Source: Clostridia bacterium
Lineage (GTDB): Bacteria > Bacillota > Clostridia > Oscillospirales > CAG-272
Assembly: GCA_017518975.1 (NCBI GenBank)
Contig: JAFWTH010000051.1
Location: forward strand, 1 to 38,566
DNA: 38,566 nucleotides
Reading direction: 5' to 3'
The notes beneath the pieces were generated by a model that was given only the letters and a program-made list of their open reading frames with translations, did not search any database and was not told the origin of the DNA. A program made the translations under genes and the position numbers. This document shows positions 3,343 to 37,032 of this stretch, in pieces; position 1 is the stretch's first letter; every line of letters starts with the position of its first letter.

Positions 3343-6078
3343 ATGAAAAAACTGTTTTCGATCATCACAGCGCTCATTATGGCGGTCTCCGCTTTTGCCG
3401 CGGCGATCCCCGCTGCGGCAGTAAGGGTTGAGTTTTCCGACGTCGCGGAATCGAGGTGGAGTTATCGTTCCATCGTGTATGCCGTTGAACACGGATATAT
3501 GCAGGGCGTCGGAGACGGAAAATTCGATCCCGCCGGTCGCCTTACCAGAGGAATGGTCGCGACGGTTCTGTGGCGCAGAGAAGGATCTCCGAAGCCGACC
3601 GCTCCAAGCGGCTTTTCGGACGTACCCGCCGGCGCGTGGTACGCCGACGCCGTGGCGTGGGCGAAGGAGACGGGAGTCGTGAACGGAATGACGGCGACGA
3701 CCTTCTCTCCGAACGGATATATCACCCGCGAGCAGCTCGCGGCAATGCTTTTCCGGTTTTCGTCAAGCGCGCCGGTATCCGTGCCCGAGCGCGCGGATCT
3801 GACTCCGTTTGCGGATGATGAAAAGACGTCCGGATGGGCAAAAGAGTCGCTTGAATGGGCGGTCGAAGCGGATCTGATAAACGGGACCGACGGAAATCGT
3901 CTCGCGCCGGAGGGATTTGCCACGCGCGAGCAGTTCGCTGCCATTATGGAGAGATACGACGCTTCCTTCAACCTTGCGTATACGGATCCCGTTATCCGTA
4001 CTCATTTTACGGAGCCGGAATATCCCCTCGTAAAGAACGCGGACGTCTACGTTTCAACGACCGGATCGGATGATAACGACGGAACGTTTGAGCATCCTTT
4101 GGCTACGTGGAACAAAGCGGTCGAAGCGGTGCGCGAACTCAAAAAGACGAAGACCGACGATATCACGGTCGCATTCATGGCGGGAGAATACGGTCCGCTG
4201 TCTCTCAAACTGACGGCGGAAGACTCGGGGGACGAGACGCAGAGGATAACGTACTGCAAGTACGGCGACGGAGACGTCGTTTTCGACAACGGCACGCACG
4301 TAAGGGAAGACGAATTCGTACCGCTGTCCGACGCGGAAAAAGAACTGTTCTCCGCCAAAGCCGCGGACAAGATCAGAAAAGCGGACGTGACGGGAAAACT
4401 CGACGGTTTCTACGTCACCGATCTCGTTCTCTCCGAAAACGGAGAGATGACCGTCGCCCGCTACCCGAACAAGTATTACGACGGTACGGACGCTCTGCTT
4501 CAGGGCGGCCACACGGTGGACGAGAGCCACATCCGCGTTTACAATCAAGTTCTCAGAAACAGAATATTGAAATACAAGTCGAGAGAAGGACTTTACCTTT
4601 ACGGATACATCACGCTCGGATGGTACAAGGACTACATCGAAACCGACGAAAGCTATATCGATCCCGAGACGGGCGATCCCGTATTCCACGTGTCCAACCT
4701 GGACAGGACCAGGGGCAGTAATCTGCGCCTGGGAGAGGGATTCGAGACTGATTTTTATCAGATGGCGATCATCAACATTCCGGAGGAACTCGACGGAGAG
4801 GGAGAATTCATCCTCTCGCGCGACAAAAATACCCTTTACGTTTACGATCCCAAGGGAGATTACGTTTTTCTGAACGAGGGCGATATGATCACGATGGATC
4901 ACGCCGACAATATCTCCTTCGTCGGGCTGACGCTCAAAAACACGCTTTCGATGATAATCGCCGCCGAACATTCGCACGGTATCACGATCGACGGATGCCG
5001 GATCAGCGGGAGCGGAGCTCACGAGGCAGTCTCTTTCAGACACTGCGACGAGGGAAGACGGTACGATATAACCGTCAGGAACTGCGAGTTTTCATTCACG
5101 GCGGCGACGGCGCTTGAAGTCAACGTCGGATACGATCTCGATCAGGTGCGCGACACGAATCTGCTGTTCACGAGTTCCGACGGGGTCCTGATCGATAACA
5201 ACCTCTTCACCCGCACGAGTCTGACGATGGGCAACTGCGGCGCGGTCGCGGTCCACGTTTTCGGGCCTACGGTATCGCACAACGAATTCACACGGTGCTA
5301 CTGGGAGGGCATAGACTTCCGCGGTTCGGTCAATATGACGGCGGAATACAACGTTTTCAACGGAGTCTGCTGGAACGGCGACGATACCGGTATGATCAAC
5401 AACTGGTACAGCATCGACCGGTGCGGCAACGTGGTGAGATACAACCTGTTCATGTCGACGCTCGGAGGGTCGGTCAACGGATGCTTCGCGCTTTATCTCG
5501 ACGACACGACGGGCACGTCCGTCTATTCCAATATCTTCTACGACGTATCCGTGACGGCGATGAACAACGGCGTGTGCAAGTACAACACGTTCTGCGACAA
5601 CATCATCATCAATCCCCGGAGTTCCGAAGGGATCGGGTGTGACTACAGAACGGGCGGAACGGAGGGCGTCGCCGCGAGGATGGAGGAATACGGCGATCCG
5701 TCCTCTCTGCTCACGTACGGCGGACGAAACAGATGGGTGAACGTGTTCGCTCTCTTCGACGAACATCCGGAATACAGGGAGAAAGCCGGAGAACGCTGGG
5801 ACGGATTCTTCAAAATCACGACCGACGTCGAAAAGTGGAACACGCCGGAATACTGCCTGAACAACTCGCTCGTCATTACGGGCAACCGCGAGATCAACGC
5901 GAACGGGACGGAAAGCGAATACAACGAACTTATAAGAAGATATTCGGTGATCGAGGACAACATATATTACGCTTCGACGGAGAATCCTCTGTTCATCAAT
6001 CCCTCGCGCGGAGACTACCGTCTCAAGGACGGAGCCGACGTTCCGGACGTGCATTTTGAAGAGATGGGTCGTTATTGA
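3343..6078 (+). CDS. SLH-anchored right-handed beta-helix protein 1 (GH141-like)
   Basis: A 911-residue exported protein. A Sec signal peptide covers about residues 1-27, three SLH domains about 30-83, 90-142 and 155-208 (wall anchoring through secondary cell-wall polymer), and a long beta-helix region begins near 232 with YVSTTGSDDNDG and runs to the end. GH141-type landmarks are an AEDSG stretch followed by YCKYGDG, ARYPNKY-DGTD, a FVGLTLKN-type turn, an acidic GDDTG (Asp680, Asp681) and LYLDD (Asp720, Asp721) about 40 residues later. GH141 includes fucosidase and xylanase members, so a surface glycosidase on plant glycan is likely but the substrate is open. Oddities: the middle position of the conserved D-G-G is Thr here, and the GRDN motif kept by the five paralogues is lost. 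It has its own promoter and is followed by a MITE-like repeat. Confidence 0.85.
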   Translation: MKKLFSIITALIMAVSAFAAAIPAAAVRVEFSDVAESRWSYRSIVYAVEHGYMQGVGDGKFDPAGRLTRGMVATVLWRREGSPKPTAPSGFSDVPAGAWYADAVAWAKETGVVNGMTATTFSPNGYITREQLAAMLFRFSSSAPVSVPERADLTPFADDEKTSGWAKESLEWAVEADLINGTDGNRLAPEGFATREQFAAIMERYDASFNLAYTDPVIRTHFTEPEYPLVKNADVYVSTTGSDDNDGTFEHPLATWNKAVEAVRELKKTKTDDITVAFMAGEYGPLSLKLTAEDSGDETQRITYCKYGDGDVVFDNGTHVREDEFVPLSDAEKELFSAKAADKIRKADVTGKLDGFYVTDLVLSENGEMTVARYPNKYYDGTDALLQGGHTVDESHIRVYNQVLRNRILKYKSREGLYLYGYITLGWYKDYIETDESYIDPETGDPVFHVSNLDRTRGSNLRLGEGFETDFYQMAIINIPEELDGEGEFILSRDKNTLYVYDPKGDYVFLNEGDMITMDHADNISFVGLTLKNTLSMIIAAEHSHGITIDGCRISGSGAHEAVSFRHCDEGRRYDITVRNCEFSFTAATALEVNVGYDLDQVRDTNLLFTSSDGVLIDNNLFTRTSLTMGNCGAVAVHVFGPTVSHNEFTRCYWEGIDFRGSVNMTAEYNVFNGVCWNGDDTGMINNWYSIDRCGNVVRYNLFMSTLGGSVNGCFALYLDDTTGTSVYSNIFYDVSVTAMNNGVCKYNTFCDNIIINPRSSEGIGCDYRTGGTEGVAARMEEYGDPSSLLTYGGRNRWVNVFALFDEHPEYREKAGERWDGFFKITTDVEKWNTPEYCLNNSLVITGNREINANGTESEYNELIRRYSVIEDNIYYASTENPLFINPSRGDYRLKDGADVPDVHFEEMGRY

Positions 6079-32111: not shown

Positions 32112-33767
32112 TTATCTTCCGTCGGTCAGAGTACCGTTAAGATAGCGAAGGAACAGCACGTAGAACGAGAGCATCGCGCCCTGGCCGTAACTCATGTTTT
32201 CGTCGTATTTGTCGCTGTATGATCCGAAGCCTCCGGATCCTCCCGAGGAGCCCCGGACCTCGCCGTCGTACACGTCGGTGAGACCCGCCTTCGCGATCGC
32301 TTTGATCGTTTTGTCGTCCACGGAGGAAGCTAGTCCGACTTCTTTCGCTTTCATAACGCCCCACATGATCTTTCCCGTGGCTGACGTGTCGGACGGAGCT
32401 TCCGGATCGGACAGAGTCCAGCCGAACTTAAAGTCGGGTTTCAGCCGTTCCATGGTGTGAGCGATGAAATCCTCGCACGCGGCGTTGACTTCCTCGTCGT
32501 GACAGTAGCGCATAACGCTTCCTATGGCGAGCATCAGATAGCCGGTACCTCTGCCCCAGCCCATTTCACCCTGGAACGCTCCGCTTCCCGAATAGCCGTG
32601 ATATGCGTAATACAGTCTCGGCATCACGCCCATTCTGAGATAGTTCGATACCTGAAGGGCGGCGATTCGCCTGACCTCCTCGTCTCCGAATACGGAAGAG
32701 TAGCGGGCCAGGAACGGCGTTACCATTCCCGTTCCGTCCACGTAAATATCATCGTCTTCGTTTTTGTCGTATTTGATCTCTCCGTATTTGTCGGTGGGCC
32801 TTTCGAGTTCCGCGCGGAGGCACTCGCGGGCAAGCTCCGCGTATTTTTCGTCTCCGGTCCGTTCGTACATATCGATCACTACGTATCCGGCGAGACCGGC
32901 GTCGGTGGAGAGGATACCCCCGCGTGCGGGGTGGTTCATCCACATATCGATATAGTCCTCGACCACGTCGTATCTGCCGAAATCGTTGAGACCGATAGCG
33001 AGAAGTCCGTTCCCCCAGACGTGCAGATCGTGGATGGAGTAGTTCGGATCCGCGGAGAGTTTTTCCATTTCGGAGCGAAGCATCCCCTCCGAATAGTCGG
33101 CGATCTTTTCAACGAAAGGAAGATAATAGTCATAAAGAGTCGTGAAGTCTGTTTCAACGAACCGCTTGAGTATGGCGGCGACCTGTTCTCTCGTCGCGAA
33201 GCCGCGCGGATCGAGCTTGTCGTCCTTTACGCCTCTTATGAGACCGACGCCCACAGCCCAGCTTACGCTTTCCTCAGCGTAGGAGTGTATCTTATCGCGG
33301 TCGGCAAAGGCCGAGACGGCGCCCCGCTCGTCCACGAGCAGGTTTTTGAAATCGCAAAAGCGGAACAGCATGGACGCAAGCTGCTCTCTCGTGACGTTCC
33401 CGTTCGGGTCGAAGGATGTCTCGGAGACTCCGTTGACGACTCCGGCGGATCTCGCCCACGCAACGGGGTCATAATAGTATTTCCCGGGCAAAACGTCGGT
33501 GAACCCGTCCTTGTGATCGACTTCCGGTTCTCCCTCGATTCGGTAGAGGACCGTGACGACCATCGCGCGCGTCATTGTACCCTCGGGGCTGAATTTACCG
33601 CCTCCGACGCCGTTCATAAGACCGTGTTCATAAGCGAACACTACCGACGCGAAGCTCCACCGGTCAACGCTCACGTCGGAGAACGGAGACGTATCGGCAA
33701 GCGCGTGTACCGTCAGAACGGACGAGAGTGTCAGAACAGCCAGAATGACCGAAATGATCCTTTTCAT
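32112..33767 (-). CDS. SLH-anchored GH105/GH88-like unsaturated glucuronyl/rhamnogalacturonyl hydrolase
   Basis: 551 residues: signal peptide to about residue 24, SLH domains about 28-80, 89-141 and 153-206, then an (alpha/alpha)6-barrel-type domain to the end. Family landmarks are DLHVWGNGLLAIGL, TDAGLAGYVVIDMYERTGDEKY, VDGTGMVTPFLARY with the candidate catalytic Asp344, and GWGRGTGYLMLAIG (near 403-416). GH105/88 enzymes act on the unsaturated uronic acid left by pectate or rhamnogalacturonan lyases and are usually cytoplasmic, so wall anchoring here is unusual. Last gene of a three-gene operon, 15 bases after its neighbour. The family call is by motif, so GH105 versus a related six-hairpin family is not settled. 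Confidence 0.75.
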   Translation of the reverse strand: MKRIISVILAVLTLSSVLTVHALADTSPFSDVSVDRWSFASVVFAYEHGLMNGVGGGKFSPEGTMTRAMVVTVLYRIEGEPEVDHKDGFTDVLPGKYYYDPVAWARSAGVVNGVSETSFDPNGNVTREQLASMLFRFCDFKNLLVDERGAVSAFADRDKIHSYAEESVSWAVGVGLIRGVKDDKLDPRGFATREQVAAILKRFVETDFTTLYDYYLPFVEKIADYSEGMLRSEMEKLSADPNYSIHDLHVWGNGLLAIGLNDFGRYDVVEDYIDMWMNHPARGGILSTDAGLAGYVVIDMYERTGDEKYAELARECLRAELERPTDKYGEIKYDKNEDDDIYVDGTGMVTPFLARYSSVFGDEEVRRIAALQVSNYLRMGVMPRLYYAYHGYSGSGAFQGEMGWGRGTGYLMLAIGSVMRYCHDEEVNAACEDFIAHTMERLKPDFKFGWTLSDPEAPSDTSATGKIMWGVMKAKEVGLASSVDDKTIKAIAKAGLTDVYDGEVRGSSGGSGGFGSYSDKYDENMSYGQGAMLSFYVLFLRYLNGTLTDGR

Positions 33768-33782
33768 AATGTCATTTACTCC

Positions 33783-35681
33783 TTACCCTTCGATTACAAG
33801 ATCGATAGCGGCGCCGGTCGCGTAGATCTGACCGGTGACCGGATCGGTGTACTTGAAGCAAACGAATATCTTATTATCGTTGATACCGTTCGAATAAAAC
33901 TCGTAAACGCTGTCGGTGAGCTCCGTTTCCTGACGGAGGAACGCCTCGATATATTCGACGTTCAACTGGTCTGCGGTGAGCGTTATGGGCGCGTCTTCAT
34001 AATAATCGATAACGTCGGTCGCGTAGGTCAGCTCATCGGAAACGTCGTCCCAGCAGAACGAGGGCGCACCGGTCGGAAGAGCGTTCGTATAAGCAAGGTA
34101 GACCTGCTTCGTTACCGAGAGGAAGAAGTGCGCGGAATACGTTTCCTCACCGCGCGAAAACTTCACGTCGACGAAGCCGCCTATGCCGTCTCCCGATCCG
34201 GCGGGGCCGTAATCCTCTTTGATAGCGTCGAAACCGTTTGTTACTTCGGCGTCGCACCCGAAAGTATCGGAAAGTACCGCGTTCAGATTTTCGAGAGTGA
34301 AGGTCGAACTGGTCCCGAACATGAAATAGACGTGGTTGTGCGAAACGCAGGCCAACTCTTCAAGTTTGTCTTCGATCACGTCTTCAAGAGGGGGCGCGAG
34401 GACCGCTCTGACCCAGATCAGGTCGGCTCTGCCGTCCGGGGCGAGCGTGTCGACGAAGCTGGCGTAGAAGGGCTCGCCCGCCGCGATCTGCGTCATATCC
34501 GCCTCGGTAATAAAGAACGGATACGTCTCCGCGTCGGTGAGGCCGGTCATTTCACGGAAGAACGCCTCGATGGCCGCTTCGGTGAACTCGCCGTCGTATA
34601 CGTAGACTTTTCTCGTCTCCAGGGGATTCGGAGCGTCAAGTTTTCTGCCGGCCGCGACGAATTCGGGATTCCTGTCCTCGGGGCATATCCCCAGAGCTCC
34701 GTTCGGGAAGCCCGCGTCTCCGGAAGGAAGGATCTTGCGGATAGAGAACTTGATGGGGACCGTCACGGACTCTTCAGTCTCGGGATCCGCGAAGGTCACG
34801 TCCAGCTCTCCGATGGGAACGTACTGACCGTCGCCGTAGAGCTGGTACTCTTCCTTGATATCGGTGATAAAGTCGTCGAAGGTGACCGTGCATCTGTCGT
34901 CGAGTCTGGCGATATTCTTCAGAATGTTCGCCATATTTTCCTCGGTGACGGTGGCGCCGGTGTAGCCGAACTGGACGTTGATGTCGCCGTGGGTGATGCA
35001 GAGGTATCTGTCAAGCATGGCGTCGATCTTGTCCTGCAGCGCCGACGCAGGGGCGGATTCGAGATAGCGCATCAGTATCGTGGCGACTTGCGCGCGCGTC
35101 GCGTTATCTTTCGGATTGAGATAGTTTTTGTCTCCGACCTTCACCCCGGCGATGAGACCCTCTGCAGCCGCCCAACTCACGGCGTCCCGGGCGTAACCTG
35201 CCGTTTTTTCGCTGTCGGGGAACTGACCGAGATCTTTTCTCGACGACGTGTTGCGGCCTGTGAATTCCGCAAAGCGGAAGAAGATGGTCGCAATCTGCTC
35301 GCGCGTGATCGGACTGTCGGGCGAGAAAGTCGTTGCCGACGTTCCGTTGACGATCTTGTTTGCGTACGCCCACGTCACCGCGTTTCTGTACCAGTCGGCT
35401 TTCAGATCCTTGAACGGAGCCGTCCCGCGGGGAGCCGGCTCGCCCTCCGAACGGTAAAGCACGGTCACTAGCATGGCACGGCTCATGGGATCGTCCGGTT
35501 TGAAAGCTGTTGCGGTCACGCCGTTCATGAGTTTGTTTTCGTACGCGTACCTTACGGTTTCTGCGTACCACGCGTCTTCCTTCACGTCGGTGAAGGGCGT
35601 CCCTGCCGCGGCTGCCGGTATGACGGTCACACCGACGAGCATAACGGCTGCGAGTATCGCGCTGATGATCCTCTTTTTCAT
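33783..35681 (-). CDS. SLH protein with a tandemly duplicated unknown domain
   Basis: 632 residues from the ATG at 35681, preferred for the GGAGG five bases upstream (an ATG 12 bases earlier is in frame). Signal peptide to about 25, SLH domains about 30-78, 85-137 and 150-210, then two copies of one roughly 205-residue domain (about 214-425 and 426-632). Matching points are LQDKIDAMLDRYLCITHGDINVQFG with LEDVIEDKLEELACVSHNHVYFMFG (shown here in part), TEENMANIL with TLENLNAVL, AIEAFFREMTGLTDA with YIEAFLRQETELTDS, and a final VRAVLA/AAIDLVI strand. The domain is not recognised; it is not an obvious hydrolase and may be a binding or scaffold unit. It sits in an operon between a Gfo-fold protein and the GH105-like protein. 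Confidence 0.75.
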   Translation of the reverse strand: MKKRIISAILAAVMLVGVTVIPAAAAGTPFTDVKEDAWYAETVRYAYENKLMNGVTATAFKPDDPMSRAMLVTVLYRSEGEPAPRGTAPFKDLKADWYRNAVTWAYANKIVNGTSATTFSPDSPITREQIATIFFRFAEFTGRNTSSRKDLGQFPDSEKTAGYARDAVSWAAAEGLIAGVKVGDKNYLNPKDNATRAQVATILMRYLESAPASALQDKIDAMLDRYLCITHGDINVQFGYTGATVTEENMANILKNIARLDDRCTVTFDDFITDIKEEYQLYGDGQYVPIGELDVTFADPETEESVTVPIKFSIRKILPSGDAGFPNGALGICPEDRNPEFVAAGRKLDAPNPLETRKVYVYDGEFTEAAIEAFFREMTGLTDAETYPFFITEADMTQIAAGEPFYASFVDTLAPDGRADLIWVRAVLAPPLEDVIEDKLEELACVSHNHVYFMFGTSSTFTLENLNAVLSDTFGCDAEVTNGFDAIKEDYGPAGSGDGIGGFVDVKFSRGEETYSAHFFLSVTKQVYLAYTNALPTGAPSFCWDDVSDELTYATDVIDYYEDAPITLTADQLNVEYIEAFLRQETELTDSVYEFYSNGINDNKIFVCFKYTDPVTGQIYATGAAIDLVIEG

Positions 35682-35698: not shown

Positions 35699-36961
35699 TT
35701 ATTCGGGCTTGAATTCGCCTTTTTCCATTTCCTCCAGAAATTTCCGCCTGATCCTTTCATAGACTTCGGGGGCGATATCCGGCTCTCCTTTCGAGCATGC
35801 CGGTACAAGCATATCACCCGCCGCCTTCGGATCCGTGCAGAGCGTGTCGTTCCGGTAAAGCTCGCGCTGCCTTTTGTCCCGAAGGTCGGGAACGTCCAGC
35901 GGAACGCCGCCCTGAAGGATCGAGCGGTATGCAAACAGTCCGGGCAGAGTCATATCGAGCGCCTCGTAGACGCCGATCACGTCCGCGGTCTCGTCCCCGA
36001 GAACGCGGTCGATGAACTGACCGAAGCAGACGTGCTCCGCTCCGCCGTACGGATCGTAATCGGAGGCGCTGACGTCGCCGGAGAGGTAGAGACTCTCCCT
36101 GACCTCTTTGCCGTCCGGTCCGTCGAGCTCCGCCGAGAAGTGGCCCACGCCGCCGTCTTTCGTTATCGACCGGGCGCTTTCCATCTTTCCCTTTGATCCG
36201 TACATCGCGTACCAGAGCGTTCCTCCGCGGAGATTACCGTTGAGCGCCTTTACGATTGCCCCGTTGTCGAGCGTTATCAGGGAGAGCCCGAACGCGGCGG
36301 TCTTCGCGCCGACGGAGTACCTTCTCTCGTTGTGAGAACTCTCGTATCCGGTAACGGAAACCGGGCGAAGTCCGGTGGCGTGGAGGATCGGACCGAGGGA
36401 GTGAGTGCAGTAGAAGGTGGAATACGCCCTGTTCCTCCAGTGATCGGGATCGCCGAAGGTGAGTCGGTGCCACGCGTCCGAAGAGTCGTGCGCGTATTCG
36501 CAATCGGCAAGCTCCAGCTCACCGAGCTTTCCCGCCCCGTAGTATTCTTTCATCTTGCGGGGCGCAGGCATAAAGCAGTACTGTTCGGCAAGCGCGTAAA
36601 TCTTTCCGCTCCGCTCAACGGCTTCGACAAGCTCCACCGCCTCTTTCATATTCTGGCAGGCAGTGACTTCGCTGTAAACGTGGAGCCCGCGGTTGAGACA
36701 TCTGACCGCGAAAGGCGCGTGTTCGTTTCCGTAATTCGCAAGAACCACGGCGTCCATATCGTGGTTGATAAAGTCGTCGAAATCCGGATAAAACACGATC
36801 CCGCTGTCCGGATGCTTCTCTTTTTCTTTCTCGAGTCCCTCGATCCATTTGTCGCAGATGGCGACGACTTCCATCTTGCTTCCGCAGGAATCCAGGCTGT
36901 ATTCCATCAGTCCTGTTCCGCGCTTGACTCCGAGGACTCCGACTCTGACTTTTCCGTTCAT
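35699..36961 (-). CDS. Gfo/Idh/MocA-fold protein, possibly GH109-like
   Basis: 420 residues from the ATG at 36961 with AAAGGGG upstream; an in-frame ATG at 36985 is less likely. The N-terminal Rossmann fold begins RVGVLGVKRG and binds NAD(P). The usual EKP catalytic lysine motif reads EVT (in VYSEVTACQN), and later STFYCTHSLGP resembles the His-containing motif of NAD-dependent GH109 glycosidases, so it may be a glycosidase or lyase-like enzyme and not a plain sugar dehydrogenase. There is no signal peptide, so it is cytoplasmic. First gene of the operon with two SLH proteins, 17 bases apart, which ties it to processing of the sugar those proteins release. Fold sure, reaction uncertain. Confidence 0.8.
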   Translation of the reverse strand: MNGKVRVGVLGVKRGTGLMEYSLDSCGSKMEVVAICDKWIEGLEKEKEKHPDSGIVFYPDFDDFINHDMDAVVLANYGNEHAPFAVRCLNRGLHVYSEVTACQNMKEAVELVEAVERSGKIYALAEQYCFMPAPRKMKEYYGAGKLGELELADCEYAHDSSDAWHRLTFGDPDHWRNRAYSTFYCTHSLGPILHATGLRPVSVTGYESSHNERRYSVGAKTAAFGLSLITLDNGAIVKALNGNLRGGTLWYAMYGSKGKMESARSITKDGGVGHFSAELDGPDGKEVRESLYLSGDVSASDYDPYGGAEHVCFGQFIDRVLGDETADVIGVYEALDMTLPGLFAYRSILQGGVPLDVPDLRDKRQRELYRNDTLCTDPKAAGDMLVPACSKGEPDIAPEVYERIRRKFLEEMEKGEFKPE

Positions 36962-37032
36962 TGTTCCCCTTTCCGTTCCCGTCATATACCGGTTAGATTT
37001 GATAAAACTGTTCTATCATATTCGGCGCAGCC

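Follow-up and report, generated by a model that had tools for sequence, protein, structure and literature searches.

An apparently undescribed, genus-restricted surface module family on SLH proteins of Clostridia, most likely a repeat-built stalk or adhesion module

What is the C-terminal region of 419 residues that follows the SLH repeats of a 632-residue protein encoded in a window of 38,566 nucleotides (the whole stretch of DNA analyzed), and what might it do at the cell surface? A preliminary description of the locus had recognized two diverged copies of a roughly 205-residue domain of no known family and, from the position of the gene in a carbohydrate-related operon, had suggested glycan binding or scaffolding. 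A GGAGG ribosome site lies directly 5' of the ATG of the gene (Table 1). Its product belongs to the SLH-anchored surface proteins (PF00395, 106.3 bits versus a cut-off of 20.8, plus a signal sequence judged by eye), and nothing besides the three SLH repeats was detected in it with Pfam. The protein is most likely a surface display protein composed of a signal peptide, an SLH anchor, and two double modules, designated A and B. A plus-strand ORF of 1,004 aa (32457-35471), antisense to the SLH genes, was rejected as a real gene and judged a by-product of codon bias, because third-position GC on the minus strand was 0.73 and the plus-strand frame has its high-GC position first.

Table 1. Features of the module protein gene and of its partners in the likely operon (SLH repeat positions were taken from a home-made SLH profile)
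Feature	Coordinates	Strand	Remarks
Module protein gene	33783-35681	minus	ATG at 35681, stop at 33783; 632 aa
Signal peptide (~residues 1-25)	35607..35681	minus	Protein begins MKKRIISAILAAVMLVGVTVIPAAAA; judged by eye
Three SLH repeats (~residues 30-80, 90-139, 154-208)	35058..35594	minus	Pfam PF00395, E 7.4e-31, 3 stretches
Double module A (residues 214-430)	34392..35042	minus	HMM E 4e-73; AlphaFold pLDDT 81.2, pTM 0.76
Module A, h1	34725-35042	minus	Cys 228
Module A, h2	34392-34724	minus	Cys 333
Double module B (residues 431-632)	33786..34391	minus	HMM E 2e-59; AlphaFold pLDDT 77.1, pTM 0.71
Module B, h1	34098-34391	minus	Cys 445
Module B, h2	33786-34097	minus	Cys 543
Downstream gene of likely operon: SLH x3 + GH88/GH105-like hydrolase	32112..33767	minus	15-base gap; Pfam PF07470 E 1.5e-14, SLH E 1.5e-26
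Upstream gene of likely operon: Gfo/Idh/MocA oxidoreductase	35699..36985	minus	17-base gap; Pfam PF01408 E 1.5e-7

Modules A and B were 31% identical over 180 columns (blastp, E = 4e-14), and their local alignment score of 141 was not approached by any of 1,000 shuffles (maximum, 61; 0/1,000 as good), bearing out the duplication of a ~205-residue domain after the SLH set. The limits first given, residues 214 to 425 and 426 to 632, were approximately right and were shifted by about 5 residues by the HMM. The reading of two copies of a single domain stood only as regards the duplication, each copy consisting in turn of two homologous units. When an alignment of 58 near-complete copies was split, the profiles of the first and second halves (h1 and h2) matched each other with an hhalign probability of 90.6 (E = 1.3e-6), and the best E value among 60 column-permuted controls was 0.04 (0/60 as good), that of the reversed control being 0.16. 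These 58 copies remained after 18 partial or weak ones were excluded from 76 module matches in the window, the genome loci, and loci retrieved from sister species. By profile comparison, each ~205-aa module is a fused pair of homologous ~105-aa units, h1 plus h2, and the plain description of one new domain present twice was dropped in favor of four units in two fused pairs. In AlphaFold models built with the window copies and three copies from locus L066, the order H-E-H-E-H-E-E was predicted for both halves of A and the first half of B, where pLDDT was about 84 to 97 over residues 1 to 90; the end of the second half of B was poorly modeled and unreliable.

Cysteines were present at positions 16 and 121 (module numbering), the former within h1 and the latter at the beginning of h2, in 58/58 near-complete copies. 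R164 (100%) and L169 were also invariant, and E160 (98%), H19 (97%), and K104 (95%) were nearly so, with Y67 at 86%; H19 and K104 lie with C16 in h1, and E160 and R164 with C121 in h2. Because the two invariant cysteines are divided between the halves, one disulfide between h1 and h2 probably staples the double module, which is the simplest reading. Among 102 scored units, 60 of the 61 followed by h2 had Cys in both stretches, and the 41 without a recognized h2 had neither Cys (18), both (12), the first alone (7), or the second alone (4); the cysteine rule was not exceptionless. This division was based on a 30-residue window and an h2 profile, with units of low profile coverage or above the E limits excluded, so that strongly diverged pairs were counted as singles; in 7 of the 12 units with both Cys (L030, L075, three in L079, L083, and L088), sequence resembling a diverged h2 was seen next by eye. 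A lysine and a G-x-G loop were retained in many single units too and for that reason look structural.

The assignment to no known family was upheld by searches of Pfam, NCBIfam, PHROGs, PDB sequences, and PDB folds. No convincing module match was found in Pfam with the window protein and 17 module copies, and the one NCBIfam match of the window protein (E = 2.2e-6) fell in the SLH part, far under the cut-off. Matches to NCBIfam SitI3 (E = 0.0037, 1/17 copies), to three PHROGs families (each with 1/17 copies; best E, 0.0019), and to PDB sequences (best E, 0.12 with one protein and 0.85 with a profile) were taken as chance. Foldseek, which had been proposed as a check on each half, was run on the A and B models and returned nothing at E ≤ 1e-3; the best matches, 4hmc (E = 5e-3) and small alarmone synthetases (E = 0.05), were left unused because TM-scores were about 0.2 or less and rmsd exceeded 12. 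With VIA-align, for which a Z score below 8 may by its own guidance reflect merely a common arrangement, neither model reached Z ≥ 5, and the weak rows included InlK (4.1) and unrelated proteins, such as a pre-60S factor (4.7), a tail lysozyme (4.6), and SUMO E1 (4.3). A strong match to a known domain, such as an adhesin, was found in neither the sequence nor the fold searches, the likeness to Rib-type domains (see below) being weak. No description of the module was found in the literature covered (titles and abstract openings, with subscription papers and preprints outside the scope).

A search of the 2.5-Mb genome with the 419-residue C-terminal region returned 20 matches; 19 of these lay on 10 contigs other than that of the window and the remaining one on the window's own contig, so that the module is not restricted to this operon. 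No relative was detected among viral contigs or plasmids, and phage or plasmid cargo was rejected as a reading; no unit was detected in the other proteins of the window (next best E, 0.15). With the module profile, 10/12 genomes of the genus were positive at E 1e-3, as were 7/295 genomes of the family at E 1e-5, every one from the genus, and 1/394 genomes of the order, the window's own. With the unit profile (E 1e-3), 10/295 family genomes were positive, namely, all 10 genus members sampled, against 0/285 from other genera; G002 (55% complete) and G005, among the 12 genus genomes, were covered by the module profile only. The unit profile also matched 1/391 class genomes and 1/368 phylum genomes, in samples that partly overlap, each match being the window's own genome. 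Within the genomes sampled, the module family is restricted to one genus. A named relative carrying the module is the sheep omasum metagenome-assembled genome RGIG5957 (L066), probably the same genome as G007.

Modules were found on differently anchored proteins. Two modules followed N-terminal SLH repeats on contigs C31 and C5, three preceded C-terminal SLH repeats on C133, and one was carried by a lipoprotein-like protein on C58. Three modules lay in a 1,327-aa frame (C28) and two in a 4,174-aa frame (C64) that stays open to the end of its contig; the copies on C129, C79, C132, and C82 were partial, diverged, or frameshifted. Runs comprised 2 to 9 modules, with nine consecutive in one 1,910-aa frame that is cut off by the contig end. 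C-terminal SLH anchors were seen at L025, L070, and L073, and a module protein at L022 had no SLH repeats and a lipobox-like start (signal peptides and lipobox were assigned by eye). Units also occurred after SLH repeats and before a GDSL esterase (twice each at L125 and L130, and at L136), LRR_5 (L126 and L132), or a WbsX-like region (L119), as well as C-terminally in an SLH-CotH protein (L022).

Several further arrangements were observed. At L022 (2257-5810, minus), the lipoprotein-like module gene adjoins the SLH-CotH kinase gene with its single C-terminal unit, and look-alikes of this gene pair were found at L081 and L082, the Pfam scan covering the L022 gene alone. Small proteins were represented by a 186-aa lipoprotein-like protein with one unit (L122, 2869-3426, minus) and by frames of 193 to 194 aa matching the unit in G004 and G011. 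The 4,174-aa frame at L026 (1-12522, minus), which runs to the contig end and has two modules near its start, contains repeats that look leucine-rich by eye and a single SLH match close to its end. At L029 (5581-6968, minus), a module copy spans two overlapping frames, reflecting a frameshift in the gene or the assembly. A single frame at L076 (5725-7887, minus) had Pfam matches to He_PIG, SLH, and, below the cut-off, elongation factor Tu domains 2 and 3, which overlap in order along the protein and represent either an unusual fusion or a chance hit. Stretches resembling dockerin and CBM9 were noted by eye at L024, for which Pfam gave a subthreshold cohesin alone (E = 0.00066). At least 150 SLH repeat matches (150 scored among 385 candidates) were counted in the 2.5-Mb genome (G000), whose surface, judged from this count, is dominated by SLH proteins.

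A tree was built from 162 units (58 h1, 59 h2, and 45 others, with units of too low profile coverage or above the E limits left out); all 59 h2 formed one clade without intruders, and the two nodes splitting h2 off had support values of 0.83 and 0.99. The unit tree thus points most probably to a single origin of the pair, followed by copying of the pair as a whole. Four genomes (G004, G006, G008, and G011) had at most one module match each and two to nine unit matches, which suggests that the single unit may have preceded the fused pair. Tandem copying of the pair is old: in the orthologues from G003 and G007, A and B are preserved as distinct types (A-A identity, 67 to 74%; B-B, 56 to 78%; A-B, 27 to 32% across the window, G003, and G007). 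For both types, dN (0.16 to 0.34) was lower than dS (0.68 to 1.62). A-A identity ranged from 66 to 85% among the window, G003, G007, and G010; in G010, the A orthologue (85%) adjoins a different second copy (30% identical to B), a putative sign of module exchange. In the nine-module protein, many copy pairs were 27 to 47% identical, and five of the nine copies were 67 to 86% identical to one another.

The likely operon is carbohydrate-related, as first described: the gene is flanked by genes for an SLH-GH88/105-like hydrolase and a Gfo/Idh/MocA oxidoreductase, and the three were found together again in two further species. In G003 the order is the same (90, 74, and 84% identity for the oxidoreductase, module region, and hydrolase, respectively), and in G007 the hydrolase is on the other strand (82, 66, and 70%). 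The oxidoreductase showed weak likeness in NCBIfam to sugar/glycoside dehydrogenases, all far under the cut-offs. In the stretches retrieved from G005 (L074) and G010 (L075, where the contig end cuts in), no match to either operon partner was found beside the related gene, and at L066 a three-module gene lies beside nusA/infB-like genes (frames by eye) and not in a glycan operon. The operon is the best argument for a glycan role, and it holds for this module subtype alone. Elsewhere in the window (3343-23523, plus), six SLH proteins of about 900 aa with right-handed beta-helix regions were found (at 3343, 6301, 9012, 14985, 17799, and 20755); they form a paralogous array and are possibly polysaccharide lyases, and one of two tested gave a weak NCBIfam match to pectate lyase (E = 0.0016, far under the cut-off).

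The double modules are read here, with a probability of about one-half, as surface modules that, like those of fibrillar adhesins, form a stalk and make contacts, because no catalytic domain was recognized, the anchors differ, and runs reach nine modules. The SLH repeats would hold the protein to the cell wall, and the two putatively stapled double modules would project beyond the S-layer; such a robust, repeat-built projection could give reach and multivalent contact with fibre, neighbors, or other surface proteins. Against the stalk reading, the conserved polar residues H19, K104, E160, and R164 exceed the needs of a mere spacer. Near-identical repeats are typical of stalks that vary in length, and the frequently strong divergence of copies within one protein speaks against a stalk of that kind.

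The main rival, possible although less probable, is that A and B bind carbohydrate as a pair and capture oligosaccharides that are pectin-like or contain uronate for the SLH-anchored hydrolase of the same operon. It draws on the tight three-gene arrangement retained in G003 and G007, on the SLH beta-helix array with its weak pectate-lyase match, and on the separate maintenance of A and B with dN below dS; set against these are the lack of any match to carbohydrate-binding families in Pfam or NCBIfam, the missing operon partners in the L074 and L075 stretches, the position of the L066 gene, and units on CotH and LRR_5 proteins, which have no evident glycan role. The earlier proposal of glycan binding or scaffolding is partly supported: scaffolding or stalk use accounts for the broader evidence no less well than glycan binding, given the L066 gene and the units beside esterase, CotH, LRR, and WbsX-like domains. 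An unlikely alternative is homotypic assembly, in which units pair between proteins and join the many SLH proteins of the genus in a common coat or scaffold. It would explain why many SLH proteins of one cell, and a lipoprotein whose neighbor gene encodes an SLH-CotH-unit protein (L022, with the look-alikes at L081 and L082), carry the unit, and it accords with the number of SLH matches in the genome and with a weak likeness to the assembly region of the Bacillus anthracis S-layer protein Sap (Z 4.1, rmsd 3.6, 82 aligned), a Z score that is, however, inside the noise range of the tool. Equally speculative is a wider surface-building system of the genus's own, in which a ~105-residue module, fused once, stapled, and spread over SLH proteins and lipoproteins, would hold enzymes, adhesins, and scaffolds together through unit-unit or unit-ligand contacts at a conserved site between the halves, as cohesin-dockerin contacts do in cellulosomes.

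Somewhat less probable still is a far-diverged offshoot of Rib/aRib, the immunoglobulin-like repeats that form stalks in Gram-positive adhesins and whose structures recurred among the best weak VIA-align matches: Rib structure 8yke for B (Z 4.4, rmsd 3.7, 74 aligned), 6s5y and 8yke for h1 of A (both Z 3.8), and SrpA/Hsa structures for h2 of A (Z 3.9 to 4.1). SrpA contains an aRib domain according to excerpts of one source (PMC6936399), and the Hsa structure presumably contains one also. The fold that defines Rib and aRib is an atrophied immunoglobulin-like one; every one of these Z scores is below 5 and within the noise range of the tool, and profile-profile comparison with Rib and aRib gave probabilities of at most 2.1, in a test that is not strong, the Rib and aRib profiles being small. 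The Pfam Rib (PF08428) and aRib (PF18938) models matched neither the window protein, the 17 module copies, nor this genome. The YPDGxxD motif that the same excerpts place in the F-G turn of Rib/aRib (PMC6936399) has little counterpart here: YPDG occurred in 1/58 copies and 1/162 units, and the broader pattern, which includes the final Asp/Asn, in 0/58 and 0/162. The module was not placed in the Rib family because no Z score reached 5, the profile comparison was negative, and YPDG was confined to 1/58 copies. A catalytic or inhibitor domain with a site formed between the halves by the conserved Cys, His, Lys, Glu, and Arg is very improbable. The near-invariance of C16, H19, and K104 in h1 and of C121, E160, and R164 in h2 is what speaks for it; tandem runs and partnerless anchored forms are unusual for enzymes, no enzyme fold or family matched above noise, and the structural appearance of the lysine and G-x-G loop points away from a site.

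The locus thus reveals a real, genus-restricted, and apparently undescribed surface module family, most likely a lineage-specific repeat-built stalk or adhesion module, with glycan binding possible. It is a lineage-restricted protein family present in every genus genome run with the unit profile, in multiple copies and on many surface proteins, and is a tractable case for following the origin of a new surface module, probably from unit to fused pair to tandem pairs. Recognition of the family would name a large set of currently unannotated proteins in ruminant gut Clostridia.

Three known systems invite comparison with the stalk and contact reading. Sap is an SLH-anchored surface protein, and its S-layer assembly domain resembles the module as part of such a protein and through the weak fold match; no sequence relation between the two was found, and the module occurs on many proteins, whereas the Sap domain belongs to one lattice protein. 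Fibrillar adhesin stalks, as outlined in parts of one source (PMC8286594), are likewise built of repeats on anchored surface proteins and combined with other domains, but the module protein has no distal adhesive domain recognized by Pfam, and its copies are mostly strongly diverged. Rib/aRib repeats share several features with the module: both are tandem extracellular modules with a weak fold likeness, and Rib proteins occasionally bear SLH domains, as noted in excerpts of the source (PMC6936399). The module differs in its unit of ~105 aa (the Rib and aRib Pfam models have 76 and 71 positions) and in its fused, probably stapled pairs without the YPDGxxD turn or a sequence match. The module, although not placed in the Rib family, may work like a Rib repeat.
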